Source: Bradyrhizobium sp. ARR65 (GTDB lineage: Bacteria; Pseudomonadota; Alphaproteobacteria; Rhizobiales; Xanthobacteraceae). From it: DNA of 64,000 bases. Shown here one piece after another: positions 12,484 through 35,000 of this stretch (position 1 is its first letter; each line of letters starts with the position of its first letter). Made by a program: the position numbers and the translations under genes. The notes beneath the pieces are model-generated. The model was not told the origin of the DNA, made no database searches, and worked only from the letters and a program-made list of their open reading frames with translations. The stretch covers positions 1-64,000 of the forward strand of contig NZ_AWZU01000040.1 of the NCBI RefSeq assembly GCF_000472385.1. Direction: 5' to 3'.

Positions 12484-13365
12484 CTACCTGTTATCGGTTT
12501 CGGGAGCACGCGCGGTCGTCTGGACCATTGGCACGCCGTAGCTTGCCAGGAGCGCACGAATCTCGGGTTGGTTGCGGGCGATTATGTCGTCAAGGCGGGC
12601 CTTGAGCGCGTGATTGCCCTTGCGCACGCCCATGGCGATGTCGAACTGGAAGCGCAAAGGCTCGAAGTCCTCCGTATCGGCGATCGGCACGACAGTCAGC
12701 GGCACTGCCGACGTTTTCGCCGCATAGCCGGCGAGAGGACCCCAGGCCGCGGCGATGTCGATATCACCCTTCTCGACGGCTTCGATCAGCCGCGCAGGCG
12801 GATCGGGCTCGCGATAATCGCCGTAGATCATGTATCCGACGACGTTCTGCACGATGTTCTGCTGTCCGAGCGCCTGAGCCGGCGGCGTATTCGTGCCGTC
12901 GCTGCCGATGAGGTGAACGCCGATCTTGAGGTGCTCCAGCCGAGGGTCCTTGATCGACACGAGATCGAGCTTGCGGTCCGCGCGCGAGACGAAAACGTAG
13001 CTCGCGCGATAATATGGGCGCGTCGTTTCGACGAGCTCGTAGTCGACCGGCACACCCATAACCACATCGCATTGTCCCGCGTTGAGCGTGTTGCGAATGA
13101 ACCCGCGCCGCTGCGCCCACCAGGTGTACGTCACGTGCTTGCCGAGCTCGGCCGCGACGAGCTGCGCGAGCCGGTTTTCAAATCCAGCGCCGGAAGCATT
13201 CGAGAACGGCAGGTTGTTCGGATCTGAGCACACCTTCAAGTCATCGTTCTCCGCGGCAAGGAGCGAAGGAGGTGCAGACAGGGTCAGGGCGATCACCAGC
13301 GCGACGGCGGCCGATCCGAGATGGCGCGAGCGCACGTCTCGGCGAAGGCTATTGAGCGTGCGCAT
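12484..13365 (-). CDS. Quinoprotein-dehydrogenase-associated periplasmic binding protein (XoxJ/MoxJ-like)
   Basis: A 293-residue protein with a signal peptide (about 1-36) and an SBP-type fold: 'LKVCSDPNNLPFSNASGAGFENRLAQLVAAELGKHVTYTWW', 'GFIRNTLNAGQCDVVMGVPVDYELVETTRPYYRASYVFVSR' and 'GDIDIAAAWGPLAGYAA' are the signatures of XoxJ/MoxJ. In methylotrophs this protein is needed for maturation or activation of the PQQ dehydrogenase rather than transport. The ATG at 13365 overlaps the end of the dehydrogenase gene by 17 bp, so translation is probably coupled; in-frame codons further upstream lie inside the dehydrogenase gene and were rejected. Confidence 0.88.
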   Translation of the reverse strand: MRTLNSLRRDVRSRHLGSAAVALVIALTLSAPPSLLAAENDDLKVCSDPNNLPFSNASGAGFENRLAQLVAAELGKHVTYTWWAQRRGFIRNTLNAGQCDVVMGVPVDYELVETTRPYYRASYVFVSRADRKLDLVSIKDPRLEHLKIGVHLIGSDGTNTPPAQALGQQNIVQNVVGYMIYGDYREPDPPARLIEAVEKGDIDIAAAWGPLAGYAAKTSAVPLTVVPIADTEDFEPLRFQFDIAMGVRKGNHALKARLDDIIARNQPEIRALLASYGVPMVQTTARAPETDNR

Positions 13366-15328: not shown

Positions 15329-15419
15329 TTTCATTTCCTCAAAATAGGCTGTACTTTGCTGCGCACGCGACGATGGCTGAGACGATCATCGACCGCGTGC
15401 GTCAGCAATGCGAAGTGGG

Positions 15420-15821
15420 TTATGTTTCGAAAGCCGCAGCGCCGGCGTCGGCGACAGCCTGGTCCTGAGTGCCGCTGCCTCCGCTGACACCAATGGCGCC
15501 GATGACCGATCCGCCACGCTTCAACGGGACACCGCCGGCGAAGATCATGATGCGCCCGTGGTTCGAGGCATGAATGCCGAAGAACTGCTGTCCGGGTTGG
15601 CTGTTCTTGGCGAGCTCGGCCGTGGGGAGATCGAATGCGCGCGCCGTGAATGCCTTGTTGATCGAGATATCGATACTGCCGAGCCACGCGCCGTCCATTC
15701 GGACATGGCTCACCAGATTTCCGCCGGCGTCAGCCACGGCGATGTTCATGGGTTGCCCGATCTCCTTCGCTTTGGCTTCCGCCGCTGCAATGATCTGCCG
15801 GGCTTCTTTCAGAGTGATCAT
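15420..15821 (-). CDS. GlcG/HbpS-family protein
   Basis: A 133-residue protein with the complete family pattern: 'MITLKEARQIIAAAEAKAKEIGQPMNIAVADAGGNLVSHVRMDGAWLGSIDISINKAFTARAF', 'PGQQFFGIHASNHGRIMIFAGGVPLKRGGSVIGAIGVSGGSGTQDQAVADAG'. Relatives bind haem or corrinoid-like ligands or act near glycolate or alcohol oxidation genes. No signal peptide. It lies between fdhA (17-bp gap) and the PQQ dehydrogenase, a frequent neighbourhood for such genes; its exact role is unknown. Confidence 0.85.
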   Translation of the reverse strand: MITLKEARQIIAAAEAKAKEIGQPMNIAVADAGGNLVSHVRMDGAWLGSIDISINKAFTARAFDLPTAELAKNSQPGQQFFGIHASNHGRIMIFAGGVPLKRGGSVIGAIGVSGGSGTQDQAVADAGAAAFET

Positions 15822-15838
15822 GACATGCTCCGTTTTTT

Positions 15839-17041
15839 TTAGGCCGCCTTGGACAGCTGTCCATGCGGATCGATGACGAACTTGCTCGCGACACCGGCGT
15901 CGAAGGATTTGTATCCATCGGGTGCCTGGTCGAGCTTGATCACTTTGACATTGACGATCTTGGCGATCGGCAGCCTGTCCCAAAGGATCGCCTGCATCAG
16001 CTGCCGGTTGTATTTCAAGACCGGCGTCTGTCCGGTGTGGAGGGAATGGGACTTTGCCCAGCCCAAGCCCAGGCGCAGGCTAAGACTGCCATGTTTGGCC
16101 GCCTCGTCCTTCGCGCCCGGATCGTCGGTGACATAGAGACCGGGAATGCCGATCGCGCCGGCTGGCCGGGTGATCTCCATCAGGCCGTTCAACACGACTG
16201 CCGGCGCATCAACGATCTTGCCGTCTGCTCCTTCGGATTTGGCTTCGAAGCCGACGCAGTCGATGGCGCAATCGACTTCCGGCTTGCCCAGAACCTCGGC
16301 AACCAAGTCGCCCAGGCGGTCGTGCTTGGTGAGGTCGATCGGCTCGAAATCAACGCTCTTGGCGTGGGCGAGCCGTTCCTTGTTCATGTCCCCGATCAGG
16401 ACGGCCGCGGCGCCGAGAATGCGCGCCGCCGCTGCGGCCGCTAACCCCACCGGTCCCGCGCCGGCGACGTAGACCGTCGATCCGACGCCGACCTTGGCGG
16501 TTACAGCTCCATGAAATCCGGTCGGCAAGATATCAGACAGGCAAGTCAGGTCGCGGATTTTTTCCATCGCCTGCGCCTTGTCCGGAAACTTCAGCAGGTT
16601 AAAATCAGCATAGGGCACCATGACGTACTCGGCTTGCCCACCGATCCATCCACCGAGGTCGACATAGCCGTAGGCGCCTCCAGCACGCTCGGAGTTGACG
16701 TGAAGGCAGACGTCGGTGTGGCCCTCTCGACAGGTTCTGCAGCGGCCGCACGCGACGTTGAAAGGAACCGAGACGAGATCGCCTATCTCGAGATACTCGA
16801 CGTCACGACCCTTCTCGATCACCTCGCCGGTGATCTCGTGCCCCAGCACCATGCCGGCCGGGGCCGTGGTGCGGCCCCGCACCATATGCTGGTCGGACCC
16901 GCAAATGTTGGTCGACACGACCTTGAGAATCACGCCGTGATGGATTTCGTTGCCAGCAGGATTGCGGAAGACTGGAAAGTCGATTTTCTGGACCTCTACT
17001 CTGCCGGGCTTTACGTAAACGACGCCGCGATTGGAAGACAT
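15839..17041 (-). CDS. fdhA: Glutathione-independent formaldehyde dehydrogenase
   Basis: A 400-residue zinc-dependent medium-chain dehydrogenase oxidising formaldehyde to formate with tightly bound NAD. Catalytic zinc region 'NICGSDQHMVRGRTTAPAGMVLGHE' (Cys about 46, His/Glu about 67). Structural zinc 'CGRCRTCREGHTDVC' with four Cys. Nucleotide fold 'VYVAGAGPVGLAAAAAARILGA'. The start is the ATG at 17041 (MSSNRGVVYVKPG), which matches the family start; the open frame upstream is noise. First gene of a six-gene operon whose PQQ dehydrogenase would produce aldehyde; fdhA removes formaldehyde in the cytoplasm. Confidence 0.92.
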   Translation of the reverse strand: MSSNRGVVYVKPGRVEVQKIDFPVFRNPAGNEIHHGVILKVVSTNICGSDQHMVRGRTTAPAGMVLGHEITGEVIEKGRDVEYLEIGDLVSVPFNVACGRCRTCREGHTDVCLHVNSERAGGAYGYVDLGGWIGGQAEYVMVPYADFNLLKFPDKAQAMEKIRDLTCLSDILPTGFHGAVTAKVGVGSTVYVAGAGPVGLAAAAAARILGAAAVLIGDMNKERLAHAKSVDFEPIDLTKHDRLGDLVAEVLGKPEVDCAIDCVGFEAKSEGADGKIVDAPAVVLNGLMEITRPAGAIGIPGLYVTDDPGAKDEAAKHGSLSLRLGLGWAKSHSLHTGQTPVLKYNRQLMQAILWDRLPIAKIVNVKVIKLDQAPDGYKSFDAGVASKFVIDPHGQLSKAA

Positions 17042-17150
17042 TTGTGACTCCTTGCTCGTCTGCGATTCTGTCGGCTCTGACCGTGCTTGAGCGCGTTGTG
17101 AAACGGCACCATGAAGGCATCCGGCAGGCGCGGCCGGCGGCGCTAACTTA

Positions 17151-17179
17151 ATCGTCGAGCGGCGCAGCGCTTCGACGAT
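17151..17179. promoter_or_regulatory. Inverted repeat upstream of fdhA operon
   Basis: ATCGTCGA-GCG (17151-17161) pairs with CGC-T-TCGACGAT (17168-17179), about 110 bp upstream of the fdhA start. It could be an operator or a leader hairpin. No riboswitch class recognised. Confidence 0.4.
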
Positions 17180-17210
17180 GTCGAGAATAATGAAGCTAGA
17201 TCGATCGGAG

Positions 17211-17268
17211 TCGGATGTGATGAGCCCAAAGCGCACTTTCACAGGGTACGGGCGCGCACTGTTCCGTT
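17211..17268 (+). repeat. 50-bp dispersed repeat, copy B
   Basis: Near-identical to copy C (5800-5857, opposite strand) from TCGGATGTG through GCGCGCACTGTTCCGTT; a diverged copy A is at 4398-4445. It lies exactly between the fdhA operon leader and the truncated UbiC-like fragment. Confidence 0.65.
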
Positions 17269-17277
17269 GACATCGCC

Positions 17278-17502
17278 TTCGGCCGAGCAGTGCAAGCGCT
17301 TGATTTCCGGCGCCGCACGCTATCGGCGAAGCTGCTCTGGTCGCCTCTGCCGCAGGCCTGGGAAATGGGCGTCCCGCTGCCCGAGCGGACAGGGGCGACG
17401 CCCACAATCCGCCCAGCGGTGCTGGAGCATCGCGCTGTGCTTTCCCTGCCCGACGGCACGCCATTCAGCGAGGTGGTCGAGACCTATACTCGCGAGGTGT
17501 AA
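17278..17502 (+). pseudogene. 3' fragment of a UbiC/UTRA-like gene
   Basis: The sequence reads '[35 protein letters not shown]' and '[27 protein letters not shown]', strongly similar to the last 75 residues of the exported protein at 6952-7650. The N-terminal two thirds are absent, replaced by repeat copy B. A remnant of a paralogue. Confidence 0.8.
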
Positions 17503-20231: not shown

Positions 20232-22943
20232 TCAGCCTAGCTGGCGGTTTCGCGAGCCGACCGCGGACGCGGTCCGCTTGATAATTCCCTGCAATTCCGG
20301 AACGCAAGAGCCGCAATTGGTGCCGGCGCGAAGCATTCGCCCGATATCGGCAACGTTTGCGGCACCCCCTTCAGCCACAGCGCGGCGGATGGCTTCAAGT
20401 CCGACACTGTAACAGGCGCAGATGATCGGCCCGGTTTTGACCACGCCCTCAGCGCTCTGGCCGGAAAGAAGAAGACGCCTGTCGCCCTCAGCCAAATTTC
20501 CCGAATTGAACAACCCTCGCACGACCTCCCATCGCGGCGGATTTTGTGATGGCCCGGAGAAAATGCAGGCCTCGATCCTGCCGGCGCGCAACGCGGCGAT
20601 GCGCACGATGCCGCGCGGCAGATCGATATATTCCGCACGCTCCGGATCGCCGCATATCAGCTTTTCGGCCAGACCATGCCATCGGGCAGGTAATTCGTTG
20701 GTCGCGAACAGAAGTCCGTAACCTCCGGGAACGGCGACGCGCGCGAACCACGTTCCGTCGGGGAGCGTGATCAAGTCGCGCGTGAGCGCAAAGCCGCGAT
20801 AGGCAAACTCAAGAGGTTCGATGCGCGCAGGCGTGGCCTTGAGCTCAGGCTGTCCGGAAAGCGGATCGTTTTCCGCCATCGCCAGCGCGCCGACACACGC
20901 ATCGGCCGCCGTCGAATAGCTCCAATGAATTGGTGCAAAAATCGATTCGCGTTGCTGACCCGAACGAACGCAAACCCGAAAAACGGCGCTGCCATGGGGC
21001 GTCGTGACCTTGGCGAAACCGCCATCGGTCATGCCCGTCCTACTCGCATCATCGGGGTGGATATCGACCATCGGTTCGGGTGAATGCGCGCCCAGCCGCG
21101 GACTCTTTCCGCTGCGCGTCATCGTGTGCCACTGATCGCGCAGACGCCCGGTATTGAGGCGCAGCGGAAAAGCGTCGCTCGTCGCCGCACGCAGCCTCGG
21201 ATGTTCCGGTGCAATGAAGCGGCCACGCCGATCGCTCGTGAAAAACGCTCCGGCGCTGAAGAAGCGCGCTTCGCCCGATTCGAATCCGGCTTTCGCGGGC
21301 CACATCACCGCGTCGAGCCGGTCATACTCATCGTCGGGGAGTGCCGCAAGACCACCCAAGTCGAAACCGCGCCGGCCATCATTCTCGAACGCCGACAGCG
21401 CCGCATGCTCGCGAAAAACATCGGCCGGCTTGCGGTAGGCAAACGCGCTCTCGAAGCCGAGGCGCTGGGCCACTTCACCGATGATCCACCAATCAGGCTG
21501 TGCCTCGCCTGGTCGCGGCAGGAACGCTCGCTGGCGCGAAATACGCCGCTCGGAATTGGTAACGGTGCCGTCTTTCTCGCCCCAGGCGGCCGCAGGCAAG
21601 AGCACATGCGCGCCCGCCTCGATGGTGTCGTTGTGGAGCGTGGTGTCGGACACGATGAACAATTCGAGCTTTTTCAACGCTCCGCGAACGGCGCCCGCGC
21701 GCGGCAGCGACACGGCCGGATTTGTCGCCATGACCCAGAGCGCCTTGATGGTTCCGCGTTCGATCGCTTCGAACATGTCGACGGCCTTGAGGCCTTGGCT
21801 CGCCGCCATCCGCGGCGCGTGCCAGAAGCGCCTGACGCGGTCAGTTTCGCTGGGCGAAAAGCCCATATGGGCGGCGAGTTGATTGGCAAGCCCCCCGACT
21901 TCGCGGCCGCCCATGGCGTTGGGCTGGCCGGTCAGCGAGAACGGTCCCATGCCCGGCCGGCCGATGCGTCCCGTGGCGAGGTGAACATTGATGATCGCAT
22001 TCACCTTGTCGGTGCCTTGCGCGGATTGATTGACCCCTTGAGAGTAGCAGGTGACGACGCGCTCGGTTCGCGCAAACAGCTCAAAGAAGCGGACAACCTC
22101 GCCGAGTTCGAGCTCGCTCGCACCGGCGGTAGCCGCCGCGTCGCCGGCGATCTCGCGCGCGCGCGCAAGTGCATCGGCGAAGCCGCTCGTATGTTCTGCG
22201 ATATAGTTGTTGTTGAGGGCGCGCGTATCGGCGAGGTAGGCAAGCAGCCCGCAAAAAAGCGCGGTATCCATTCCGGATGCGATCGGCAGTAACAGATCCG
22301 CCGCATCCGCCGTTGCGGTGCGTCGCGGATCGATAACGACCAATTTGGTGCCGCGTTCTTTTTTTGCGGCAATCATCCGTTGATAGAGTACCGGATGACA
22401 CCATGCTGCATTGGAGCCCACGAGCACGATTAGATCGGCCTCGTCTAGATCCCGGTAAATGCCGGGCACCACGTCGGCGCCGAAGGCGCGGCGATGTCCG
22501 GCAACGGAAGAGGCCATGCACAGCCGCGAATTGGTGTCGACGTTGGACGAGCCGAGAAAGCCTTTCATCAGCTTATTGGCGACATAGTAATCTTCAGTGA
22601 GCAACTGACCTGAAAGATAGAACGCAATCGCGTTCGGCCCGTCTCGATCGACGATCGTGCGCAGTCCGTTTGCGACCTTTGCCAGTGCGGTGTCCCAATC
22701 CGTACGTGCAAGAGAACCGTCTGCTTGACGAAACATGGGGTGAAGCAAGCGTTGGTCGAGCGAAAGCGTTTCGCCGAGTGCCGAGCCTTTCGAGCACAGC
22801 CGCCCGAAATTGGCCGGATGCGCGGGATCGCCGGAAATAGTCGTATCGCCTTGCCGGTCCACGGCTGCGAGAATGCCGCAGCCGACGCCGCAATACGGAC
22901 AGGTGGTGCGCACGGCAGGAGGATGTCGCGATAAAGTGTTCAT
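20232..22943 (-). CDS. nasA: Assimilatory nitrate reductase, catalytic subunit
   Basis: A 903-residue cytoplasmic Mo-bis-MGD enzyme reducing nitrate to nitrite (called nasC in Bradyrhizobium). N-terminal [4Fe-4S] site: Cys15, Cys18, Cys22 and Cys50 ('CPYCGVGC' and 'LCSKG'). Mo-ligand region 'NTNSRLCMASSVAGHRRAFGAD'. Molybdopterin-binding blocks 'GRIGRPGMGPFSLTGQPNAMGGREVGG' and 'PLRLNTGRLRDQWHTMTRSG'. The C-terminus carries a BFD-like [2Fe-2S] domain: 'ICACYSVGLEAIRRAV' and 'TNCGSCVPEL' (four Cys). The ATG at 22943 lies 19 bp after the FAD oxidoreductase gene, its presumed electron donor. No nitrite reductase is present here. Confidence 0.93.
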   Translation of the reverse strand: MNTLSRHPPAVRTTCPYCGVGCGILAAVDRQGDTTISGDPAHPANFGRLCSKGSALGETLSLDQRLLHPMFRQADGSLARTDWDTALAKVANGLRTIVDRDGPNAIAFYLSGQLLTEDYYVANKLMKGFLGSSNVDTNSRLCMASSVAGHRRAFGADVVPGIYRDLDEADLIVLVGSNAAWCHPVLYQRMIAAKKERGTKLVVIDPRRTATADAADLLLPIASGMDTALFCGLLAYLADTRALNNNYIAEHTSGFADALARAREIAGDAAATAGASELELGEVVRFFELFARTERVVTCYSQGVNQSAQGTDKVNAIINVHLATGRIGRPGMGPFSLTGQPNAMGGREVGGLANQLAAHMGFSPSETDRVRRFWHAPRMAASQGLKAVDMFEAIERGTIKALWVMATNPAVSLPRAGAVRGALKKLELFIVSDTTLHNDTIEAGAHVLLPAAAWGEKDGTVTNSERRISRQRAFLPRPGEAQPDWWIIGEVAQRLGFESAFAYRKPADVFREHAALSAFENDGRRGFDLGGLAALPDDEYDRLDAVMWPAKAGFESGEARFFSAGAFFTSDRRGRFIAPEHPRLRAATSDAFPLRLNTGRLRDQWHTMTRSGKSPRLGAHSPEPMVDIHPDDASRTGMTDGGFAKVTTPHGSAVFRVCVRSGQQRESIFAPIHWSYSTAADACVGALAMAENDPLSGQPELKATPARIEPLEFAYRGFALTRDLITLPDGTWFARVAVPGGYGLLFATNELPARWHGLAEKLICGDPERAEYIDLPRGIVRIAALRAGRIEACIFSGPSQNPPRWEVVRGLFNSGNLAEGDRRLLLSGQSAEGVVKTGPIICACYSVGLEAIRRAVAEGGAANVADIGRMLRAGTNCGSCVPELQGIIKRTASAVGSRNRQLG

Positions 22944-22962
22944 GACCAGCTCACAGCGCTCG

Positions 22963-24222
22963 TCAACCTGCCGCCATTTCTCGTTCAACTGAGCTGTCTC
23001 GTCGCGCGGCCGCCGCTTGCCGCTCGGCCAATGCTCGTCCGAAAATGAGATCCTCGCGGACGGAATCGATCGCGGCGCCGGAACGAATGAGATCGAGATA
23101 CCAAAATGAGTCAGCCGTATCGCCGTAGAGCACTGCGCCGACGATGCGGCCGCCGGCAATCACCAGCTTTCGGTAGGTGCCAAGCCCCTGATCGCTGAAC
23201 ACCACCGACTCGGTACCGGGCGCGCCGAGAAAATCCCCGGCAGAGAACACATGAACGCCGGAGACCTTGAGATTGGCGGCGTTCACGCTGCCGAGATAAC
23301 GTGCATCGCGGCCGGCGAGGCGCTCGGCCAACACGCGCGCCTGCTCGTTGGCGGGCTCCACTAGGCCGTAGCAGACGCCGCGGTGCTCGGCGCATTCACC
23401 GATTGCGAAAACATCGGATATGCTGGTGACGAGATGATCGTCGACGACGATGCCGCGATTGACCGCGATACCGGCGTGAGCGGCGACTTCGGCGTTCGGC
23501 TTGATGCCGACCGCAACAACGACCGTGTCGGCCGCGAGCACGCGGCCGTCCTCGAGCTCTACACCCTCGACGTGACCATTGCCGACGAATCTCGCCGTCG
23601 CGACGTCCAGCAGCACCCGGATGCCTTTGGCCTCGACTGCACGCCTGAGCAGCAACGCGGCGCGTGCGTCGAGCTGGCGCTCCATCAAGCGATCCATGAG
23701 ATGAACCAGTGTCACCGATGCGCCGGCTTTGGCGAGACCGTAAGCCGCCTCAATGCCTAGGAGTCCGCCGCCGATCACGACAATGGGCGCGCTCCGGCGG
23801 GCGGCCCGCGAGATCGACACGACGTCGCTCATGTCGCGGAATGTGAGCACGCCAGGCAGATAGGCACCGGCGATGCCCAAGCAGATTGGCCGCGAGCCGG
23901 TGGCGAATACGAGCTTGGCGAACGGCAACGCTTTGCCGTCGGACAGCGTCACGGTGCGTGCGGCAATATCCGTCGCCCTCACGCTGACGCCACAGCACAA
24001 GGTGATACCCCGATCTCTCCACCAAGCCGCCGGCTTCAGTAAAGTGTCGCTCGCAAGCACTTCGCCGGCCAGCACCGACGAAAGCAGCACGCGATTATAG
24101 GCAAGCCGCGGCTCTTCACCGATCACCGCAATGGCATAACGGCCGAGCGCACGCTGGGAGAGCTCTTCGCACAAGCAGGCAGCCGCCATCCCGTTGCCGA
24201 CGATAACGAGCGGTTCGCTCAT
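22963..24222 (-). CDS. NAD(P)H/FAD oxidoreductase of nitrate assimilation (Flp/NasB-like)
   Basis: A 419-residue flavoprotein homologous to the N-terminal reductase part of NirB. FAD site 'VIVGNGMAAACLCEELSQRALG', 'LVFATGSRP' and 'DVFAIGECAEH'. NAD(P)H site 'IVVIGGGLLGIEAAYGLAKAGASVTLV'. It lacks the Fe-S/sirohaem half, so it is an electron donor, not a nitrite reductase. It is cotranscribed with nasA and matches the flp gene of the Bradyrhizobium narK-bjgb-flp-nasC locus, where it feeds both nitrate reductase and a haemoglobin. The start ATG 24222 matches the family. The 5' part of the gene is duplicated at 24495-24679. Confidence 0.88.
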   Translation of the reverse strand: MSEPLVIVGNGMAAACLCEELSQRALGRYAIAVIGEEPRLAYNRVLLSSVLAGEVLASDTLLKPAAWWRDRGITLCCGVSVRATDIAARTVTLSDGKALPFAKLVFATGSRPICLGIAGAYLPGVLTFRDMSDVVSISRAARRSAPIVVIGGGLLGIEAAYGLAKAGASVTLVHLMDRLMERQLDARAALLLRRAVEAKGIRVLLDVATARFVGNGHVEGVELEDGRVLAADTVVVAVGIKPNAEVAAHAGIAVNRGIVVDDHLVTSISDVFAIGECAEHRGVCYGLVEPANEQARVLAERLAGRDARYLGSVNAANLKVSGVHVFSAGDFLGAPGTESVVFSDQGLGTYRKLVIAGGRIVGAVLYGDTADSFWYLDLIRSGAAIDSVREDLIFGRALAERQAAAARRDSSVEREMAAG

Positions 24223-24252: not shown

Positions 24253-24494
24253 ATGGTCTTGCGTAACATTGTCGGCGCTCCTTTCGGGACGCGACGGCGT
24301 CCATTCGACTGACAAAAAGTTCACGATCGTTCGCCTGGATTGCGAAGATGAGATCCATGCAGCACCGCTGTGGAGTTGTGATGCACGAAGAATATGTTCA
24401 AGAACATATTTTGACTGACGGCATTGTCGCGCCAGTTGGAGGCGCCTCGCCGACTCATTCATGGCCGCTTGCGGCCATCTCGCTCGGCGTTGTC
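24253..24494 (-). repeat. Inverted repeat, left arm
   Basis: The reverse complement of this 242-bp stretch aligns throughout with 25002-25247 (about 80-85% by eye). It contains a 20-bp palindrome and ends with the first codons (MLRKT) of the small exported protein whose intact copy starts at 25231. It is wedged exactly between the two copies of the flp 5' end. Confidence 0.85.
24391..24410. promoter_or_regulatory. 20-bp palindrome in nas promoter region
   Basis: AATATGTTCAAGAACATATT: two 9-base arms, perfect, around AA. A related site (one mismatch) is in the other arm at 25086-25105. It lies about 170 bp upstream of the FAD oxidoreductase start. The binding protein is unknown; Rrf2/NsrR-like or other dimeric regulators are candidates. 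Confidence 0.65.
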
Positions 24495-24679
24495 AGCACC
24501 GACGAAAGCAGCACACGATTATAGCATCGGCAAGCCGCGGCTCTTCACAGATCACCGCGTCGGCATAGCGGCCGAGCGCACGCTGGGCGATCTCTTCGCA
24601 CAAGCAGGCAGCCGCCACTGTTGCCAACGATGACGAGCGGACACCGTCATCGTAATCCTGAACCCTGCTCCAGCGTCCA
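24495..24679 (-). pseudogene. Duplicated 5' end of the flp-like gene
   Basis: A direct repeat of 24071-24251 with small indels. Translation gives 'ACLCEEIAQRALGRYADAVICEEPRLA', matching residues 15-40 of the intact protein. The start region is altered and the rest of the gene absent. It is preceded on the same strand by the globin remnant, in the order expected for bjgb-flp. Confidence 0.85.
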
Positions 24680-24942
24680 CAGCAGCGCCGCGCCAACGGC
24701 GTGTAATCGGCCGCTTTCACGCCATAGTCGACGTGTCGCTTGACAAGAGTGCTCGCCGCCGGCAACTCGGCTTCGAGATTGCCGAGACTGTTGACCAAAG
24801 CGCCCGGCGTCGCCATCAGCTTGCAGCGTTGTTCAGTCATATCGCTGCGTAACAAAGGTTTGACCGCCGGCGCAATCTCGAACAGCCGTCCATTGAACAA
24901 GGCGGTGGCTTGCGATGCCGGTGCAATCAACTTAACGCGCAA
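24680..24942 (-). pseudogene. Single-domain haemoglobin (Bjgb-like) remnant
   Basis: 'APASQATALFNGRLFEIAPAVKPLLRSDMTEQRCKLMATPGALVNSLGNLEAELPAASTLVKRHVDYGVKAADYTPL' (given here as the span 24690-24942) matches vibrio-type bacterial globins: the CD-region 'FEIAP..KPLF..DM', the F-helix 'ARRHVDYGVK'. A shift then gives 'GAALLWTLEQGSG'. The first 20 residues and the final third are missing. It probably represents the ancestral haemoglobin of this nitrate locus, now lost. Confidence 0.8.
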
Positions 24943-25001: not shown

Positions 25002-25247
25002 GACAACGCCGAGCGAAATGGCTGTAAACGGCCATGAATGAGTCGGCGAGGTGCCTCAAACTGGCGCGACAACACCGCGATTCAAAATATGTTCTTGAAC
25101 ATATCCTTCGTCCGTCACAACTCCACAGCGGCGGCGAAGCATGGATCTGATTTTCGCAATCCAGGTGAACGATTGTGAATCGTTTTGTCAGTCGAATGGA
25201 CGCCGTCGCGTCCCAAAGGGAGTGCCTGCAATGTTACGCAAGACCAT
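25002..25247 (+). repeat. Inverted repeat, right arm
   Basis: The partner of 24253-24494. It carries the second 20-bp palindrome and the start of the small exported protein gene at 25231. This arm is the promoter region for the plus-strand globin/reductase/narK genes. Confidence 0.85.
25086..25105. promoter_or_regulatory. 20-bp palindrome, right-arm copy
   Basis: ATATGTTC-TT-GAACATAT (25087-25104) is perfect; the outermost pair is mismatched. It stands about 320 bp upstream of the PNPOx-globin gene and 125 bp upstream of the small gene at 25231. Confidence 0.65.
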
Positions 25248-25371
25248 GATCGTCTTGGCTAAGGCTGCCGCTCTCACCAGCGCACCGACTGTCGAAGCGT
25301 TTGCGCATGGCGATGCAGTGGGCGCGCGTTTTCCCCGCTGCGGATGGTGCGCATTAAGTTGGTTACACTGA
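25231..25371 (+). CDS. Short exported peptide, possibly truncated
   Basis: A 46-residue reading frame: MLRKTMIVLAKAAALTSAPT is followed by 'VEAFAHGDAVG', a signal peptide with cleavage after AFA. RBS AAAGGGAG at 25215-25222. The mature part is only about 20 residues with two Cys and may be a frameshifted remnant of a Gly/His-rich exported protein. Its first codons are also conserved in the left inverted-repeat arm. Confidence 0.45.
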   Translation: MLRKTMIVLAKAAALTSAPTVEAFAHGDAVGARFPRCGWCALSWLH

Positions 25372-25423
25372 CATCGCAAGCCGCCGCCCTTTTCCATGGG
25401 CAGCTGTTCGAGGTGGGATAAAT

Positions 25424-26503
25424 ATGAACCTGCACCGAGTATCTTTGGTTGACAGCCCAGCAAGTAATCCATCGCCTTCTGAGCTTGGCCACCCGCCGGG
25501 CCAGCCCGGTGGTCCGGCAAAGGTGAAAACCCCAAGCCTCCTGCCCGGCTCCGAAGGCGAGCACGCGCTGCAGGCGAAATATGCCTCCGAGGATCGGGCC
25601 AATACCTTTTATGCCCGGCAGGTCCTGAATTTTCTCGCCCCGCGAATGCGGGAATTCATCTCCCGGCAGGAGTTCATGTTCGTCGGCACCGCCGATCGTC
25701 ACGGTGAATGCGATTGCAGCCCGAGATTCGGCGAGCCCGGCTTCATCCATGTGCTGGGGAACAAGCATCTCCTCTACCCCGAATATCGCGGCAACGGCGT
25801 ATTTGCCAGCCTGGGGAATATTTCAGAAAATCCGCACGTCGCCCTGCTGATCCTCGACTTCTATCGAGATTCCATCGGCCTGCATGTCAATGGCAAGGCG
25901 CGCATCGTGCAGAGCGATGATCTCGAAGCCTTTGCCGACAAGCTGCCCAAGGATGTGCTGACCGAGTTGGCGAAGGACGGCAAGAGCCGGCCGAATAGGT
26001 GGGTAATGGTCGAGGTCGAGGAGGCCTACATCCAATGCTCCAAGCACATCCCGCTGCTAAAAAAGCTGGAGCGACCGATCGATTGGGGAACCGACAGCGT
26101 CGCTGCGAAGAAGGGGGATTATTTCCAGCTGAAGGACATCCCGCTCTATGACCGGATCGGTGGCGACCAGGCGATGGACATCGCCGTCGATCTGTTCCAC
26201 CGCAAGCTCCTCGAGGACGACCTCGTCGGACGATTCTTCGACGATCTCGATGGGGTGGCTCAGCGGCTCAAGGAGAAATCCTTTCTCGTCATGGCCTTTG
26301 GCGGTCCGTACCAGTACAGCGGCGTCGAGCTGGTCAGCAAAATGGGGCTGGAGGCGCGGCATTTCGACCGGCTATCCGCGATCCTCAAGGAAACTCTGAA
26401 AGAGCTGAAGATCGGCGCCCCGGAAATCGAAGAGATGATGCAGGTCATCGAGACCACGCGCGAAGTCATCCTGAATCTCTTGGATCGCCAGTGCTTGCGG
26501 TGA
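25424..26503 (+). CDS. PNPOx-like flavin domain fused to a truncated globin
   Basis: A 359-residue two-domain protein. After a Pro-rich N-terminus, residues about 50-210 are a pyridoxamine-phosphate-oxidase-like split barrel ('FISRQEFMFVGTADRHGECDCSPRFGEPGFIHVLG', 'YPEYRGNGVFASLGNISENPHVALLILDFYRDSIGLHVNGKARI'), a fold that binds FMN, F420 or haem. Residues about 238-355 are group I truncated-globin-like ('PLYDRIGGDQAMDIAVDLFHRKLLEDDLVGRFFDD', 'QRLKEKSFLVMAFGGPYQYSG'). The segment after 'YSG' is about three residues short, and I do not find the usual proximal His at its place. Ten bp before the FHA-reductase gene, so the two proteins probably work together, perhaps in NO or O2 chemistry. Confidence 0.85.
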   Translation: MNLHRVSLVDSPASNPSPSELGHPPGQPGGPAKVKTPSLLPGSEGEHALQAKYASEDRANTFYARQVLNFLAPRMREFISRQEFMFVGTADRHGECDCSPRFGEPGFIHVLGNKHLLYPEYRGNGVFASLGNISENPHVALLILDFYRDSIGLHVNGKARIVQSDDLEAFADKLPKDVLTELAKDGKSRPNRWVMVEVEEAYIQCSKHIPLLKKLERPIDWGTDSVAAKKGDYFQLKDIPLYDRIGGDQAMDIAVDLFHRKLLEDDLVGRFFDDLDGVAQRLKEKSFLVMAFGGPYQYSGVELVSKMGLEARHFDRLSAILKETLKELKIGAPEIEEMMQVIETTREVILNLLDRQCLR

Positions 26504-26513
26504 GGAGCGCACC

Positions 26514-28205
26514 ATGACCAGACGGGATGTCGATGGGAATGCAGGATCGGCCCCACCCGAACCGGCATTTTGGGAACAGCTATTCGCCGGCCTGCCGGCG
26601 CCGGTCACCGTCCCGGACAGTCCAGGCGGATCGGCGACACCGCAATCCGAAACTCTCGGATGTCGCCGCAGAACCTGGATCGATCGGCTGTTCGCGGGCG
26701 AGGAATCATATGCCGACTCGCCCGACAAGATCGTCATCCTGCAGAACGGCGTCGAGATCGAGGATGTGCCGATCGATCCGCTGGGCAGCTGGACCGTCGT
26801 CGGACGACATCCGCGTGCCCATATACAACTCGAGGCCTACAAGCTCGGCCTGTTTCACGCCGCCTTCCAAAAGAAGGACGGCAGGTTTTATCTAAGAGCG
26901 ATCGATCTTGAATGCGGGACGCTTCTCGATCGAAAAAAGATCAAGGCGGGCGTGCCTGTTCCGCTACGGGATGGGTCTCTGGTCGACATCCCGGGCTATC
27001 AACTGCGTATCCGCCTTGCCAATTCTCCGGCCACCGCAGGGGAGGAGATTGTCGAGGCTGAGGAATTGGCGGAAGTTCCCTCCTATTTCTATGTCCCGCC
27101 CCCGGCCCCCTCAAGCCCAGTGCTGTCGAATCTCACCGAGAATCGCGCCACCATCGCGCTCTGGTCGGGCGGCGTCACGAGCTTGAAGGTGGCGGACATT
27201 ATCGAGGAAACCGCCGACACCAAGACCTTTCGGCTCGTCGGCGAAAAGCCGCTCCTGTTCTCCTATCGACCGGGTCAGTTCGTGACCCTTCTTCTCACCA
27301 TCGATGGCGAGTATATCGAGCGGTCCTACAGCATCTCATCGAGCCCGTCCCGGCCGCATGTTCTCGAATTGACTGTGAAACGCGTACCCGGCGGTCGTGT
27401 GTCGAACTGGCTGTGCGACCATGTCATGCGGGGGGAGCGGCTGACCATCAAGGGGCCGGCTGGAAAATTCAGCTGCTTCGATTGTCCGGCGTCAAATATG
27501 CTCTTCATCGGCGCCGGCAGCGGGATCACGCCGATGATGTCGATGAGCCGTTGGATCGCCGACACAACCGCCGATGTGGATGTGAAGTTCCTGGTCTCGT
27601 TCAAATCGCCTGCGGACATCATTTTCCGCAAGGAGCTCGAGCTCATCTCGGCTCGGCATACCTGTTTCCGCGTTGCCGTCACCCTGACCTCCGCCTCGCC
27701 TGGACGAACCGATTCTTGGACCGGCCTCACCGGGCGATTCGACAAGTCGATGATCCATGCGCTGGTCCCCGACCTCGATCAGCGGCACGTCTTCCTGTGC
27801 GGGCCCGAGTCCTTCGCCGCGGAGGTGAGGAGGATCCTCCAGGAGCTCGGCTTTGATCAGACCAAGCTCCATAGCGAGAGTTTCGGATCCAGCCGGGTTG
27901 CGAGAGGAGGCAAGCGTGTGCCGAAGCCACTGGCGCTGTCCGAACCGCGGCACCGTGTCCACTTCATCAAGAGCGACAGGACGGTCGAGACGGACGAGAC
28001 AGTGACCCTTCTGGAGCTGGCGGAAGCCCACGGAATCGAGATGGATTACGCCTGCCGGACCGGCAGTTGCGCAGAGTGCGAGGTGAGCTTCACCGGAACG
28101 CTTTCCGAGAAACCGGAGTTCGAAAAGGACCGCCGGCGCAAGGAGAACGGGATCGCCTTTGCTTGTTGCAGCGTCGCCCTTTCCGATCTCGAGGTGGAAG
28201 CGTGA
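26514..28205 (+). CDS. FHA domain-ferredoxin reductase-[2Fe-2S] ferredoxin fusion
   Basis: A 563-residue protein. FHA-like domain about 70-170 ('GSWTVVGRHPRAHIQLEAYKLGLFHAAF', 'RAIDLECGTLLDRKKIKAG', 'LRDGSLVDIPGYQLRI'). FAD-binding 220-330 with 'YRPGQFVTLLL' and RxYS as 'RSYSISSSP'. NAD(P)H-binding 330-450 with 'MLFIGAGSGITPMMSM' and 'VFLCGPESFAAEV'. C-terminal plant-type ferredoxin 475-563 with Cys in 'DYACRTGSCAECEVSF' and 'AFACC'. The reductase part resembles flavohaemoglobin and hybrid-cluster reductases, so it likely reduces the preceding globin protein. The FHA part would link it to a phospho-Thr signal, but the canonical Ser-x-x-His reads 'LFHA', so phosphopeptide binding is uncertain. 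Confidence 0.88.
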   Translation: MTRRDVDGNAGSAPPEPAFWEQLFAGLPAPVTVPDSPGGSATPQSETLGCRRRTWIDRLFAGEESYADSPDKIVILQNGVEIEDVPIDPLGSWTVVGRHPRAHIQLEAYKLGLFHAAFQKKDGRFYLRAIDLECGTLLDRKKIKAGVPVPLRDGSLVDIPGYQLRIRLANSPATAGEEIVEAEELAEVPSYFYVPPPAPSSPVLSNLTENRATIALWSGGVTSLKVADIIEETADTKTFRLVGEKPLLFSYRPGQFVTLLLTIDGEYIERSYSISSSPSRPHVLELTVKRVPGGRVSNWLCDHVMRGERLTIKGPAGKFSCFDCPASNMLFIGAGSGITPMMSMSRWIADTTADVDVKFLVSFKSPADIIFRKELELISARHTCFRVAVTLTSASPGRTDSWTGLTGRFDKSMIHALVPDLDQRHVFLCGPESFAAEVRRILQELGFDQTKLHSESFGSSRVARGGKRVPKPLALSEPRHRVHFIKSDRTVETDETVTLLELAEAHGIEMDYACRTGSCAECEVSFTGTLSEKPEFEKDRRRKENGIAFACCSVALSDLEVEA

Positions 28206-29554
28206 AAGACGGTGCAGCGGAGCAAACATTGATGCGGGGCCACAAGGTTGAACAGCTTGGGATAGCGACCGTCGGCTTTTTTTGGTGTTTCCTGATGTGG
28301 TTCTCCACGGCTACCTTTAGCCCAAGCATCGCGGCGACGTATCATCTCACGATCAAGGACCTTGGCCTGCTCGCCAGTTCGGCCATCTGGATGACGCCGG
28401 CCGGGCGCATCTTCGCCGGCTGGGCGTCCGATCGATTTGGCGCTCCGCGGACGTTCGCCGCAATCCTTGCCGGCTGCGGACTGGTTTCGATCGCGTCGGC
28501 TTTCACCACCAGCTACGAGCTGCTTTTCGCCGAGCGAGTGCTCGTCGCCATTGCCGGCGTCTCCTTCGTCGTCGGCGTCCAGCACGTGGCGCAATGGTTC
28601 GACGCCCACGAGATCGGCACCGCCGAGGGACTTTACGCCGGCACCGGCAATGTCGGTGCTGGCGTCGGCGCATTGTTCCTGCCGCGCATGTTTGGCACCG
28701 ATTATCGGAGCGCATTTCTGTGGCTGGGTATGATCGCTCTCGTCATCGCCGCCTGCTATCTGTGGCGCGGTAGCTCCGCCAAGACCATGGAGCGGCGTGA
28801 CGCGGTGCGGCGCGGCGGCGACCTGCGCGGAATGGTATTCGTGTGGACCCGCTATATCGCCATCGCTTTGATGCTGGCTTATGCGATGTCGTTCGGCTTG
28901 GAAATCGCTTTGAACGCTTGGCTGCCGGGTTATTTCGCCCGCGGCTTTCACAATGAGATTCTCGCGCTCGGCTTCAACGGCGTTGCCGGCATTCAGATCG
29001 CGGCCGGCACGTTTGCGGCCGTGGCATCGTTCAACGCGTCTTTGTTCCGGCCATTCGCCGGCTTCATGTCTGACCTCTTCCAGCGCAGGGGTTGGACGCC
29101 GTTGCCTTTCATTGCCAAGGAACTGTCCTACGCGCCGCGCCTGCATTGGCTGGCAATCGCGCTCATCCTGATCATGCTGTCGATGATCGGGCTGACCGTT
29201 GCCGGGCTTTACGGCTTTTTGCCCTGGTCGATCGCGGTGCTGGTGGTGCTCGGCATCTTTGTATCGTTCGGCACCGGCGGCACTTTCGCCCTGGTTCCGC
29301 TGCTCTTTCCGGACCGCCCCGGTATTGCCGCCGGCTTCATCGGCGGGATCTCAACCGTCGGCGGCATCGCCTATCCGCTGATCTTTGCCAGCAGCGCCAA
29401 CGCCCACGTCGGATATCTCTACGTCTCGCTCTACATGTTCGCGCCGTTCATCATGTTCTACTTCTGGGCAGCGCGTTACGAGCGGAATCCGCAGGAGCAT
29501 GGCCTGCTTGGCCGCGCTCTGGCCGGCCTGAGCTCCGCACCGAAGCCGTCGTGA
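28202..29554 (+). CDS. narK: Nitrate/nitrite MFS transporter
   Basis: A 450-residue major-facilitator protein with about 12 hydrophobic segments. Signatures: 'WCFLMWFSTATFSPSIAATYHLT', 'GRIFAGWASDRFGAPR' (MFS motif A region), 'GVQHVAQWFDAHEIGTAEGLYAGTGNVGAGVGALFLPR' and 'GIAAGFIGGISTVGGIAYPLIF', the last two being nitrate-signature Gly-rich segments of the NNP family. The GTG at 28202 overlaps the upstream stop by 4 bp; an ATG at 28232 behind GGAG is the alternative. The context (nasA opposite) says nitrate import and/or nitrite export at the inner membrane. Confidence 0.9.
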   Translation: MKDGAAEQTLMRGHKVEQLGIATVGFFWCFLMWFSTATFSPSIAATYHLTIKDLGLLASSAIWMTPAGRIFAGWASDRFGAPRTFAAILAGCGLVSIASAFTTSYELLFAERVLVAIAGVSFVVGVQHVAQWFDAHEIGTAEGLYAGTGNVGAGVGALFLPRMFGTDYRSAFLWLGMIALVIAACYLWRGSSAKTMERRDAVRRGGDLRGMVFVWTRYIAIALMLAYAMSFGLEIALNAWLPGYFARGFHNEILALGFNGVAGIQIAAGTFAAVASFNASLFRPFAGFMSDLFQRRGWTPLPFIAKELSYAPRLHWLAIALILIMLSMIGLTVAGLYGFLPWSIAVLVVLGIFVSFGTGGTFALVPLLFPDRPGIAAGFIGGISTVGGIAYPLIFASSANAHVGYLYVSLYMFAPFIMFYFWAARYERNPQEHGLLGRALAGLSSAPKPS

Positions 29555-29572
29555 AATTCTCCAGGAGATGCA

Positions 29573-29728
29573 ATGAACCCCATTGATATTCGTGTCGCGC
29601 CGCACGAGCCTTGGTACAAATACGGCGTCGCCGTCCTGCTGTTCGAAATAGCCGTCGCCATCGCGGTCAGCGGCTACTCGCTGTATGTGACCTTTAACGG
29701 CCTCGGCGGCTTTCCTGGAGAGCATTAG
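29573..29728 (+). CDS. 51-residue single-pass membrane peptide after narK
   Basis: MNPIDIRVAPHEPWYKYGVA is followed by one hydrophobic helix ('VLLFEIAVAIAVSGYSLYVTF') and 'NGLGGFPGEH'. AGGAG lies 8 bases before the ATG, and the gene is 18 bp after narK. Amphipathic N-terminus in, helix, short Gly-rich exit. Possibly a small subunit or partner of NarK or of the globin/reductase complex. Not recognised. Confidence 0.65.
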   Translation: MNPIDIRVAPHEPWYKYGVAVLLFEIAVAIAVSGYSLYVTFNGLGGFPGEH

Positions 29729-32071: not shown

Positions 32072-35000
32072 TCATTCCGCCGGTGCAAATTGTCCTTGCG
32101 CGGCAATGCCGGACTGGCGCCGCCGCGAGAACATTGAAATCAAAGCCGGCAACGTGATCAGGATCACGATCGGGGCAAGCATCATTCCGGCCACCACCAC
32201 GATCGCGAGCGGCTTCTGAACCTGCGAACCGATTCCGGTCGAGAGCGCTGCCGGCAGCAAGCCGATACCAGCCACGACACAGGTCATCACCACGGGCGCA
32301 GTTGCAGTTCGCCGGTGCGCAGGATGGCCGCGGCGCGATCCATCCCCTGGTCGATGAGCTGATTGTACTGTGAGAGGATGATGATCCCGTCCATCACAGA
32401 GATGCCAAACAGCGCGATGAAGCCTATCGCCGCGGAAACGCTGAACGGGATCCCGAACACCAGCAATCCGAGGATCCCCCCGAGAACCGCCATCGGGATC
32501 ACGCTCATGGTGAGGACGGTGTCGATCACCGAACCGAAGTTGAGTCAGATCAGCAGCGCGATCAGCGCAAGGCTGATCAGAACGACAATCGAGAGCCGCC
32601 TGATCGCGTCCTGCAGATTGCCGAATTCGCCCACCCATTCCAGATGCGATCCAGGCGGCAGCTGCACATTGGCCGCGACCTTCTCCTGGGCCTCCTGAAT
32701 GGCGCTCCCGAGGTCGCGCTCGCGCACCGAGAATTTGATCGGCAGATAGCGCTCCTGCTGTTCCCGATAGATGTAGGCGGCCCCTGAAACCACCTTAACT
32801 GTGGCAACCTCGCTGAGCGGCACTTGCGTAATGCCGTTCGGCCCCTGTGTGCCTATTCTGAGATTCCGAATCGCCTCGGCGCTACGGTGATATTGAGGGG
32901 CGAGGCGGACGATGATCGGGAAATGCCGATCGCTACCCGATTCATAGAGGTCGCCGGCGCTGTCGCCGCCGATCGCAGTACGTATCGTCGTGTTGATGTC
33001 GCCCGGTGACAGGCCGTAGCGCGCGGCCCGCGCACGATCGACGTCGATTTGGATCGTCGTCTGGCCAAGCGAGGTGAAGACGGCCAGATCGGTGATTCCC
33101 TGAACGGTTGCAAGCTGGGCCTTGATCTTGTTCGCCGTATCAGTCAGCGCTTGCAAATCACTACCGTAAAGCTTGATGGAGTTTTCGCCTTTCACGCCGG
33201 AGACTGCTTCCGAGACGTTGTCCTGCAAGTATTGCGAAAAATTGAATTCAACGCCGGCAAACTTGTCCTGCAACTGCTTAAGCAGGCTCGCGGTCAACTC
33301 GTCCTTGTCCTCGTGATCCGGCCACTCCTTCGCGGGCTTGAGCGGTGCAAAAAATTCCGCGTTGAAGAAGCCGGCTGCATCGGTGCCATCGTCGGGCCTG
33401 CCATGCTGCGACACAACCGTCCCCACTTCCGGACGGCTTGCGATCAGCTTGCGCATTTCGTTCACATAGGAGTTGCCTTCCTGCAGCGAGATGGTCGGTG
33501 GAAGAGTAGCCCTGACCCAGAGATTTCCCTCTTCCAGCGTCGGCAGGAATTCCAATCCCAGAAAACGCACGGCGAACGCCGTCGCCACGATCAAAACCGC
33601 GCCGCCCGCCAACACTAGGCGCCGGTGAGCGAGCGAACGCGCCAGCGCCGGCATATAGAGCCGATGCAACCAGCGCATCAGGAACGTCTCGGTTTCCTCG
33701 ACATGAACGGGGAGAATGATCGCGCTCAGCGCCGGTGTGACCGTAAATGTCGCCAACAAGCCGCCGGCGAGGGCATAGGCATAAGTCCGGGCCATAGGGC
33801 CGAAAATATTGCCTTCGGCGCCGCTTAAGGTGAACAACGGCAGAAACGCCGCAATGATGATGGCCGCCGCGAAGAAGATCGACCGCGAGACGTCTGCCGC
33901 CGCAGTCAGAATCGCATGGTGCTTCATGCCAATGATGGTGTGGCCGGAGATCGCTGCCTGTTCCCGTTCGGACAGCACTTCGGTGTGCGCAAGGCGGCGG
34001 AAGATCGCCTCGACCATGATGACGGTGGCATCGACGATCAGGCCGAAATCGATTGCGCCGACCGAAAGTAGATTGGCCGACTCGCCGCGCAGCACGAGTA
34101 TACCGACTGCGAAAAACAGCGCGAACGGGATCGTCGCTCCTACAATGAACGCGCTACGCAGATCGCCCAAGAAGATCCATTGTAGCAGCACAATCAGGAC
34201 AATGCCGACGACCATGTTCTCGATCACGGTCTTGGTCGTGGTCTCGATCAGGTCCTTGCGATCATAGATGCGTTCTATGCGCACGCCGGGCGGCAGGATC
34301 GTGGAGTTGTTGATCGCCGCGACGAGTTGCTCAACCCTCGCAATCGTCGGCGAACTCTGCTCGCCGCGGCGCATCAACACAATGCCCTGGACAATGTCGT
34401 CATCGTCGTTCTCTCCGGCGATCCCAAGCCGCGGCTCCTCGCCGACCGTCACCGTAGCGACGTCCTTGACCAAGACGGCCGTGCCATTGTTCGAGGCAAC
34501 CATTGTGTTGGCAAGCGACGCGATCGAGCGAATCAGGCCGACGCCGCGGACCACGGCCGACTGCGACCCGATATCGACGGTGTTGCCGCCGACATTAACG
34601 TTCGAGTTGCTGATCGCCTGCAGCAATTGCGGCAAGATCAGTTTGTTGGCGACCAGCTTGTTGAAGTCGACCTGCAACTCATAGGTCTTGGTCCGGCCGC
34701 CCCACCCCGTCACATCGATAACGCCGGGCACGGTGCGGAAGCGGCGTTGCAGGACCCAATCTTGCAAGGTCTTGAGATCGAGCACCGAATAGTTAGGCGG
34801 CCCGACCAGGCTGTATCGGTATATCTCACCGATCGGGCTAACCGGAGATATCTGCGGCTGAGCGTTGTTGAGGAGCGACGGCAGCTGCGACAGGCGGTTC
34901 AACACCTCTTGCTGCGCCTGCTCATGGTGTAGTCGAAGGAAAACTGCAGCTTGACGTCCGACAGACCGTAAAGCGAGATGGTCCGGATAGTCCTCATATT

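Follow-up and report, generated by a model that had tools for sequence, protein, structure and literature searches.

A putative FNR-ferredoxin and PPOX-globin operon behind a copied leader at a second nitrate-assimilation locus in a small group of Bradyrhizobium

What might a globin-fold domain be used for in a nitrate-assimilation setting when it is fused to a flavoprotein barrel and apparently lacks its haem ligand? This question is raised by a four-gene operon occurring in a stretch of 64,000 nucleotides from Bradyrhizobium sp. ARR65 (contig NZ_AWZU01000040.1, positions 1 to 64,000 of the forward strand; hereafter the window). The operon encodes a PPOX split-barrel protein fused to a truncated globin, an FHA domain fused to a ferredoxin-NAD(P)H reductase (FNR) and a [2Fe-2S] ferredoxin, a NarK-like transporter and a short peptide. 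Judged from its sequence, a small Bradyrhizobium group has here a second nitrate-assimilation locus, paralogous to the canonical one, in which the bjgb-type globin gene is broken and the operon stands behind a copied leader. The anatomy of the operon and its link to the nas genes are strong. The operon probably serves nitrate or nitric oxide (NO) chemistry, and not as an ordinary haem enzyme. With a rough probability of 0.45, it would be a module of nitrate/NO metabolism in which an FNR-ferredoxin drives a PPOX flavoprotein and the globin is a docking or relic domain. The locus amounts to a natural experiment in which a nitrate locus has its NO-handling globin gene broken and another redox module stands behind a copy of the leader of flp-nasC.

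A second flp-nasC locus and its copied leader

The operon consists of four genes, successively separated by 10, -4 and 18 bp according to the coordinates of their open reading frames (ORFs):

25424-26503, plus strand: PPOX-globin fusion, 359 amino acids (ORF; found full-length in 5 of 265 genomes of the genus, its own included)
25637-26038, plus strand: PPOX split-barrel domain (PF01243; fold match to HupZ and PNPOx-like structures)
26144-26473, plus strand: group-1 truncated-globin domain without the proximal-His stretch (PF01152; aligned to 2hz2 and 3aq9)
26514-28205, plus strand: FHA-FNR-ferredoxin fusion, 563 amino acids (ORF, Pfam domains, alignment)
26793-26990, plus strand: FHA domain (PF00498; pocket residues aligned)
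27183-27830, plus strand: FNR, FAD and NAD(P) domains (PF00970, PF00175)
27972-28178, plus strand: [2Fe-2S] ferredoxin domain, four Cys invariant across six aligned sequences (PF00111)
28202-29554, plus strand: narK-like MFS transporter, 450 amino acids, GTG start (ORF, Pfam MFS_1, NCBIfam)
29573-29728, plus strand: peptide of 51 amino acids with one hydrophobic stretch by hydropathy (homologues 90-92% identical in G053, URHD0069 and G219)

The four plus-strand genes, their domains and their spacings, as described in a first-pass annotation of the window, are borne out by the ORFs and by Pfam matches above cut-offs. In the PPOX-globin protein, PNPOx_N covers residues 72-205 with 55.2 bits (cut-off 28.1) and Bac_globin residues 241-350 with 39.9 bits (cut-off 21); in the second fusion, FHA (residues 94-159), FAD_binding_6, NAD_binding_1 and Fer2 (residues 487-555) all exceed their cut-offs, as does MFS_1 in the narK product. 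Membership of this transporter in the NarK family appears weaker than the other domain calls: the top NCBIfam model, TIGR00886 of the NarK family, scores under its cut-off (E 3.6e-44, 151 of 312 bits), and nothing matches it among the PDB sequences at 1e-5. Its overlap of 4 bp with the preceding gene is retained in G219, and the match begins some 110 bp later in G053, G043 and URHD0069. The 51-residue peptide has no match in Pfam or NCBIfam; it was found in G000 and G053 only among 149 genomes, and not in G043. A consensus scan picked up a single weak promoter-like site, with 0.5 expected, and zero terminators.

Divergently oriented from the operon lies an flp-nasC pair which, like the duplicated leader and the bjgb remnants accompanying it, is absent from the first-pass annotation:

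20232-23159, minus strand: nasC, assimilatory nitrate reductase with a C-terminal BFD [2Fe-2S] domain, start codon uncertain, at most 23159 (Pfam Molybdopterin, Molydop_binding, Fe4S4 and Fer2_BFD; NCBIfam NasC E 3e-123, below cut-off)
22963-24222, minus strand: flp, NirB-type FAD/NAD(P)H reductase, 419 amino acids (domain and homologue searches; NCBIfam below cut-off)
24253-24494, minus strand: leader copy 1, ahead of flp-nasC (inverted repeat of copy 2, 87% identical)
24392-24409, no strand: palindrome ATATGTTCNNGAACATAT, copy 1 (invariant in 10 of 10 leader copies)
24526-24617, minus strand: duplicated fragment of the flp 5' end, after the longer bjgb remnant (91% repeat of 24097-24188)
24694-24930, minus strand: what remains of a single-domain globin gene of the bjgb type, lying upstream of leader copy 1 (tblastn; aligns with residues 16-91 of the 141-residue Bjgb, both ends lost)
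25002-25247, plus strand: leader copy 2, ahead of the PPOX-globin operon (inverted repeat of copy 1)
25087-25104, no strand: palindrome ATATGTTCNNGAACATAT, copy 2 (in leader copy 2)
25359-25415, plus strand: 5' fragment (19 codons) of a bjgb-type gene, 8 bp ahead of the PPOX-globin start (tblastn)

The window locus thus possesses a NasC with a C-terminal [2Fe-2S] domain and an Flp-type reductase (by Pfam, the NCBIfam scores lying below cut-offs), and of the single-domain Bjgb it keeps remnants only. Remnants are likewise all that any carrier of the operon has there: using the canonical 141-residue Bjgb from G219 as a query, a complete bjgb was recovered at the locus in none of five genomes. 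The best remnant, that of G053, is an open frame located between leader and flp which spans residues 16-107 out of 141; each of the others is either shorter or interrupted by a stop or by changes of frame. A separate bjgb-flp-nasC occurs in the four genomes searched for it (G000, G043, G053 and G219; URHD0069 was left out of this search), with bjgb open over 141-142 codons. The window NasC is 61-64% identical to the NasC of these canonical loci, and the Flp/NasC paralogues overall share 61-65%.

According to Cabrera et al. 2016 (PMC4724949), the narK-bjgb-flp-nasC operon of Bradyrhizobium japonicum serves nitrate assimilation and NO resistance. Owing to the broken bjgb and to the separate canonical bjgb-flp-nasC, the window locus is best seen as a paralogue of that system with its globin gene broken. 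The window locus and the B. japonicum operon have in common NasC-type and Flp-type reductases, a NarK-family transporter and a nitrate/NO setting; the bjgb-type gene found there is reduced to a remnant here, and the window locus differs by its two divergent units (tandem in G053), its duplicated leader, its two extra fusion genes and the 51-residue peptide. In tblastn, the window narK matched nothing significantly within the 11-kb stretches surrounding the canonical bjgb of four genomes (best E 0.08). The relationship to nitrate and to Bjgb/Flp put forward in the first-pass annotation is therefore upheld by flp-nasC, the duplicated leader and the bjgb remnants, but not as a replacement for the cell's only Bjgb, since a separate open bjgb exists in all four genomes searched.

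The leader is approximately 240 bp long, and a 241-base query matches only its two copies in the window's genome. With a query of 233 bases, matches occurred in 6 of 195 genus genomes, two of them being matches of 28 and 33 bases that carry little weight; long matches, two copies each, were restricted to G000, G043, G053 and G219, all four of which carry the operon. Two copies are also present in the fifth carrier, Bradyrhizobium sp. URHD0069. In all five carriers one copy precedes the PPOX-globin gene and the other precedes flp, in a divergent arrangement except in G053, where both run in the same direction about 10 kb apart. Within a genome, the identity between the two copies amounts to 100% (rounded) in URHD0069 and G053, 95% in G219, 89% in G043 and 88% in G000. 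The perfect 18-bp palindrome occurs in two places only of the 8.6-Mb genome, one mismatch being allowed. An Rfam scan over 19-32 kb, leader included, revealed no RNA family. The leader RNA folds close to shuffled sequence (z -0.45 and -1.80 for the two copies), and an ANTAR-type hairpin pair was not seen in it by eye; antitermination by the leader is therefore not claimed.

The pairing of the two fusion genes within one small clade is firm, and their co-occurrence outside the window, proposed as a check in the first-pass annotation, was confirmed: both stand together in all five carriers of the PPOX-globin gene (G000, G043, G053, G219 and URHD0069), each time close to flp-nasC, the two leader copies and the bjgb remnants. 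In counts which take in the window's own genome, the full-length PPOX-globin occurs in 3 of 149 relatives and, among the 385 genomes of a class sample, in its own genome alone (E 1e-25). For the full-length FHA-FNR-ferredoxin the figures are 3 of 149 relatives, among the matches listed, and again its own genome alone of 385 (E 1e-40), the other listed matches starting at residue 193 at the earliest. Public plasmids contained no near match of the locus.

A proposed FNR-ferredoxin path to the PPOX flavin

According to the preferred reading, electrons from NAD(P)H would pass to the flavin of the FNR, on to the [2Fe-2S] ferredoxin and from there to the PPOX flavoprotein. The PPOX flavin would either reduce nitrogen-oxide species arising from nitrate assimilation or back a haem globin doing so, and NarK would transport nitrate or nitrite. 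The reductase retains intact FAD, NAD(P) and Fer2 domains and all four Cys of the ferredoxin, as in FNR-[2Fe-2S] ferredoxin reductases of the GbcB/Hcr type, the NCBIfam model GbcB itself being matched with 305 of 500 bits, below its cut-off.

Relatives of the PPOX part were collected by a contig scan based on two peptide patterns, which distant PPOX-globin fusions could escape. It yielded 34 loci, consisting of 3 Bradyrhizobium fusions and 31 loci matching over the PPOX part only. A tblastn match to globin plus FNR lies within about 2 kb of the PPOX gene in 27 of these 31 (27 of L121-L149); the globin-FNR gene is located upstream on the same strand in 24 cases, downstream in two (L128, L136) and divergently in one (L121), and all four neighbour proteins scanned carry Globin, FAD_binding_6 and NAD_binding_1. 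The actinobacterial PPOX genes are 45-54% identical to the window PPOX and have globin and FNR encoded adjacent to them, with no PPOX-globin fusion at their loci; the globin-FNR protein of L138 keeps a His at the proximal place, judged by eye. Flavohaemoglobin (Hmp) similarly unites a haem globin and an FNR in one chain, whereas the window distributes them over separate genes and fuses its globin to PPOX. The PPOX part missed the cut-off of TIGR04025, the MSMEG_1061 family of PPOX flavoproteins (97.8 of 170 bits). No PPOX-FNR-ferredoxin fusion was seen by eye among a few long frames inspected in relatives, which were not submitted to a domain scan. Searches of the open-licence PMC literature, by titles and the openings of abstracts, revealed no report of the operon or of a link between PPOX and flavohaemoglobin. 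These neighbourhoods suggest a testable idea, namely that globin NO enzymes and a PPOX flavoprotein family as yet uncharacterised are partners across phyla.

Among the neighbours, a survey of which the first-pass annotation advocated, flp-nasC in all carriers, flavohaemoglobin-type genes beside most PPOX relatives and a closest free globin immediately preceding a ferredoxin-FNR gene speak for the proposed setting, and reductase relatives fused to molybdopterin-binding-type proteins point to a different partner.

Several further points weigh against the FNR-ferredoxin-driven PPOX module. The substrate of PPOX is a proposal, and the complex of the operon proteins and its expression are predicted. 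Four loci (L120, L142, L148 and L150) have no globin-FNR neighbour; 29 of the 31 loci are actinobacterial, most of them from Streptomyces, and are therefore not independent; and the PPOX genes found on Leptolyngbya, Rhodococcus and Paenibacillus plasmids keep other company, without a globin-FNR neighbour. The near-shuffled folding of the leader RNA counts on the same side. In B. centrolobii (G043; loci L067 and L119), about 170 codons of narK are left, flp is split over two frames and a stop interrupts PPOX-globin at codon 358 of 359, a partial decay by which the locus may be dispensable there. Finally, the nearest FNR-ferredoxin relatives found are C-terminal modules of molybdopterin dinucleotide-binding proteins of 1284-1307 amino acids, from three alphaproteobacteria.

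These last relatives (loci L164:243-4097, L165:5635-9495 and L166:4423-8346) share 44-45% identity with the window reductase in the class-sample search and 41-43% by blastp, and group with it in a FastTree tree with a support of 0.94, the Leptolyngbya proteins described below falling elsewhere with low support. Together with the tree, they make NasC a possible partner of the FNR-ferredoxin. The FHA-FNR-ferredoxin protein might thus be the electron donor of the NasC encoded at the same locus, alongside or in place of Flp, with PPOX-globin in a side role; this is conceivable but on balance not likely. The NasC of the window retains its adjacent Flp, and Flp is required for the growth of B. japonicum on nitrate, as reported in PMC4724949. 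The molybdenum part of the fusions has Molydop_binding as its sole Pfam match and no similarity to the window NasC at E 1e-5, and in G410 a molybdopterin-FNR-ferredoxin gene is found near a Rieske oxygenase-type gene. At two of the three loci, L165 and L166, the neighbour of the molybdopterin-FNR-ferredoxin gene encodes an MFS-cNMP-histidine kinase fusion.

The altered globin and FHA domains

The label of truncated globin given in the first-pass annotation is correct for the fold family, namely that of the group-1 truncated haemoglobins (trHbs; PF01152, with E 1.4e-17 against the PDB cyanoglobin), but the haem ligand is missing. Compared to the Synechocystis cyanoglobin GlbN, the fused globin lacks seven residues (rymreah), and compared to the Tetrahymena trHb it lacks three (eah). 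Both gaps comprise the His that acts as the proximal haem ligand (F8). The stretch is missing in all five fusion proteins, and at position B10 a His replaces the Tyr. The closest free globin found, from G566, is 49% identical and retains the His stretch. It is a His-bearing group-1 trHb, and a ferredoxin-FNR gene lies 15 bp downstream of its gene (L154:1362-2780), with multihaem cytochrome genes nearby.

The mean pairwise ratio of nonsynonymous to synonymous substitutions (dN/dS; a simple Nei-Gojobori count without significance test) over the five genomes is 0.19 for PPOX, 0.45 for the globin, 0.24 for FHA, 0.17 for FNR and 0.09 for the ferredoxin; the globin is thus less constrained than its partners, yet not free. 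In a structure model, the predicted local distance difference test (pLDDT) reaches about 70-95, by blocks, in the PPOX half and about 38-67 in the globin part; the model is usable for the PPOX half only and, owing to the low values of the globin, neither supports nor refutes a haem pocket. We favour the view that the globin part would no longer bind haem in the usual way. As far as its residues can tell, it most probably acts in docking or structure, or persists as a relic on which selection has weakened.

In this respect, the split NO dioxygenase envisaged in the first-pass annotation, i.e., a haem-binding trHb fed by the FNR-ferredoxin and tuned by phosphorylation via the FHA domain, has become unlikely. 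The globin fold family, the nas linkage and the pairing of a globin with a ferredoxin-FNR in G566 agree with it, and so do the algal partnerships of trHb and nitrate reductase reported in PMC9837059, where the Heterosigma protein NR2-2/2HbN has a globin fused to nitrate reductase; the tie to nitrate assimilation is shared, although the window globin is fused to a PPOX barrel. The absent proximal-His stretch, the replaced B10 Tyr and the weaker constraint on the globin part weaken the idea of a haem globin performing the NO chemistry, and the FHA pocket weakens that of a phospho-control.

When aligned with GarA, the pocket of the window FHA retains the Arg but has Gly in place of Ser and Cys in place of Asn, in agreement across the four Bradyrhizobium sequences aligned. 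These three residues form the phosphothreonine pocket, and two of the three are replaced. Two plasmids of a single strain of Leptolyngbya boryana (L062:5318-10464 and L063:5264-10380) code for FHA-FNR-ferredoxin proteins with the three domains in identical order and 30-34% identity to the window protein. Both keep the pocket Ser and one keeps the Asn, whereas the window FHA keeps neither. A gene for a Ser/Thr kinase-WD40 protein occurs two genes upstream of the FHA-FNR-ferredoxin gene, the one in between having a weak Fer4_5 match. Phospho-control looks plausible in Leptolyngbya and less so in Bradyrhizobium. Judging by the tree, the FHA fusion may have arisen more than once.

A bolder proposal makes the PPOX family a general partner of globin-type NO enzymes. 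After fusion of the two in Bradyrhizobium, the globin would have lost its haem to become a docking domain; through it, a dedicated FNR-ferredoxin, docking in its turn by a phosphate-independent FHA, would feed the PPOX flavin, and the result would be a haem-free, flavin-based, NO- or nitrite-detoxifying enzyme induced together with nitrate assimilation. We consider this improbable.

Conservation, decay and minor observations

The FHA-FNR-ferredoxin gene is open in all five genomes, against four of five for PPOX-globin and for narK; outside G043, the four genomes keep PPOX-globin, FHA-FNR-ferredoxin, narK, flp and nasC open. Over four genomes, narK has a mean dN/dS of 0.29, nasC of 0.23 and the peptide of 0.47, and a value of 1.39 is reached, over the genomes compared, by the first 69 residues of the FHA protein. 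Because the frames stay open and the ratios of PPOX, FHA, FNR, ferredoxin and narK range from 0.09 to 0.29, the ORFs and the operon represent more than chance. That the second locus as a whole is a duplicate in decay, serving no function at present, seems, for its part, quite improbable. The bjgb and flp fragments surrounding it, the partly broken copy of B. centrolobii and its restriction to 5 of 265 genus genomes would fit such a decay, but the main genes are open in four of the five genomes and show, nasC included, the low ratios just mentioned.

It is very improbable that PPOX-globin is a haem-handling protein of the HupZ/HutZ split-barrel type instead of a redox partner: HupZ is the best fold match of the PPOX part, and HutZ and a putative haem oxygenase occur among the first 15, but these are general split-barrel matches of 12-21% identity over about 135-150 columns, listed together with flavin mononucleotide (FMN) and F420 proteins, and no haem-uptake gene was seen among the window neighbours scanned, which comprise some of the ORFs only.

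Elsewhere in the window, positions 12484-17464 harbour a cluster of the methanol-oxidation type, comprising a pyrroloquinoline quinone (PQQ) dehydrogenase, a MoxJ-like protein and a glutathione-independent formaldehyde dehydrogenase. A CusA/CzcA-type RND gene at positions 32072-34905 may be broken, its long frame spanning positions 119-894 of the 1051 in the model, with a second frame overlapping its end.

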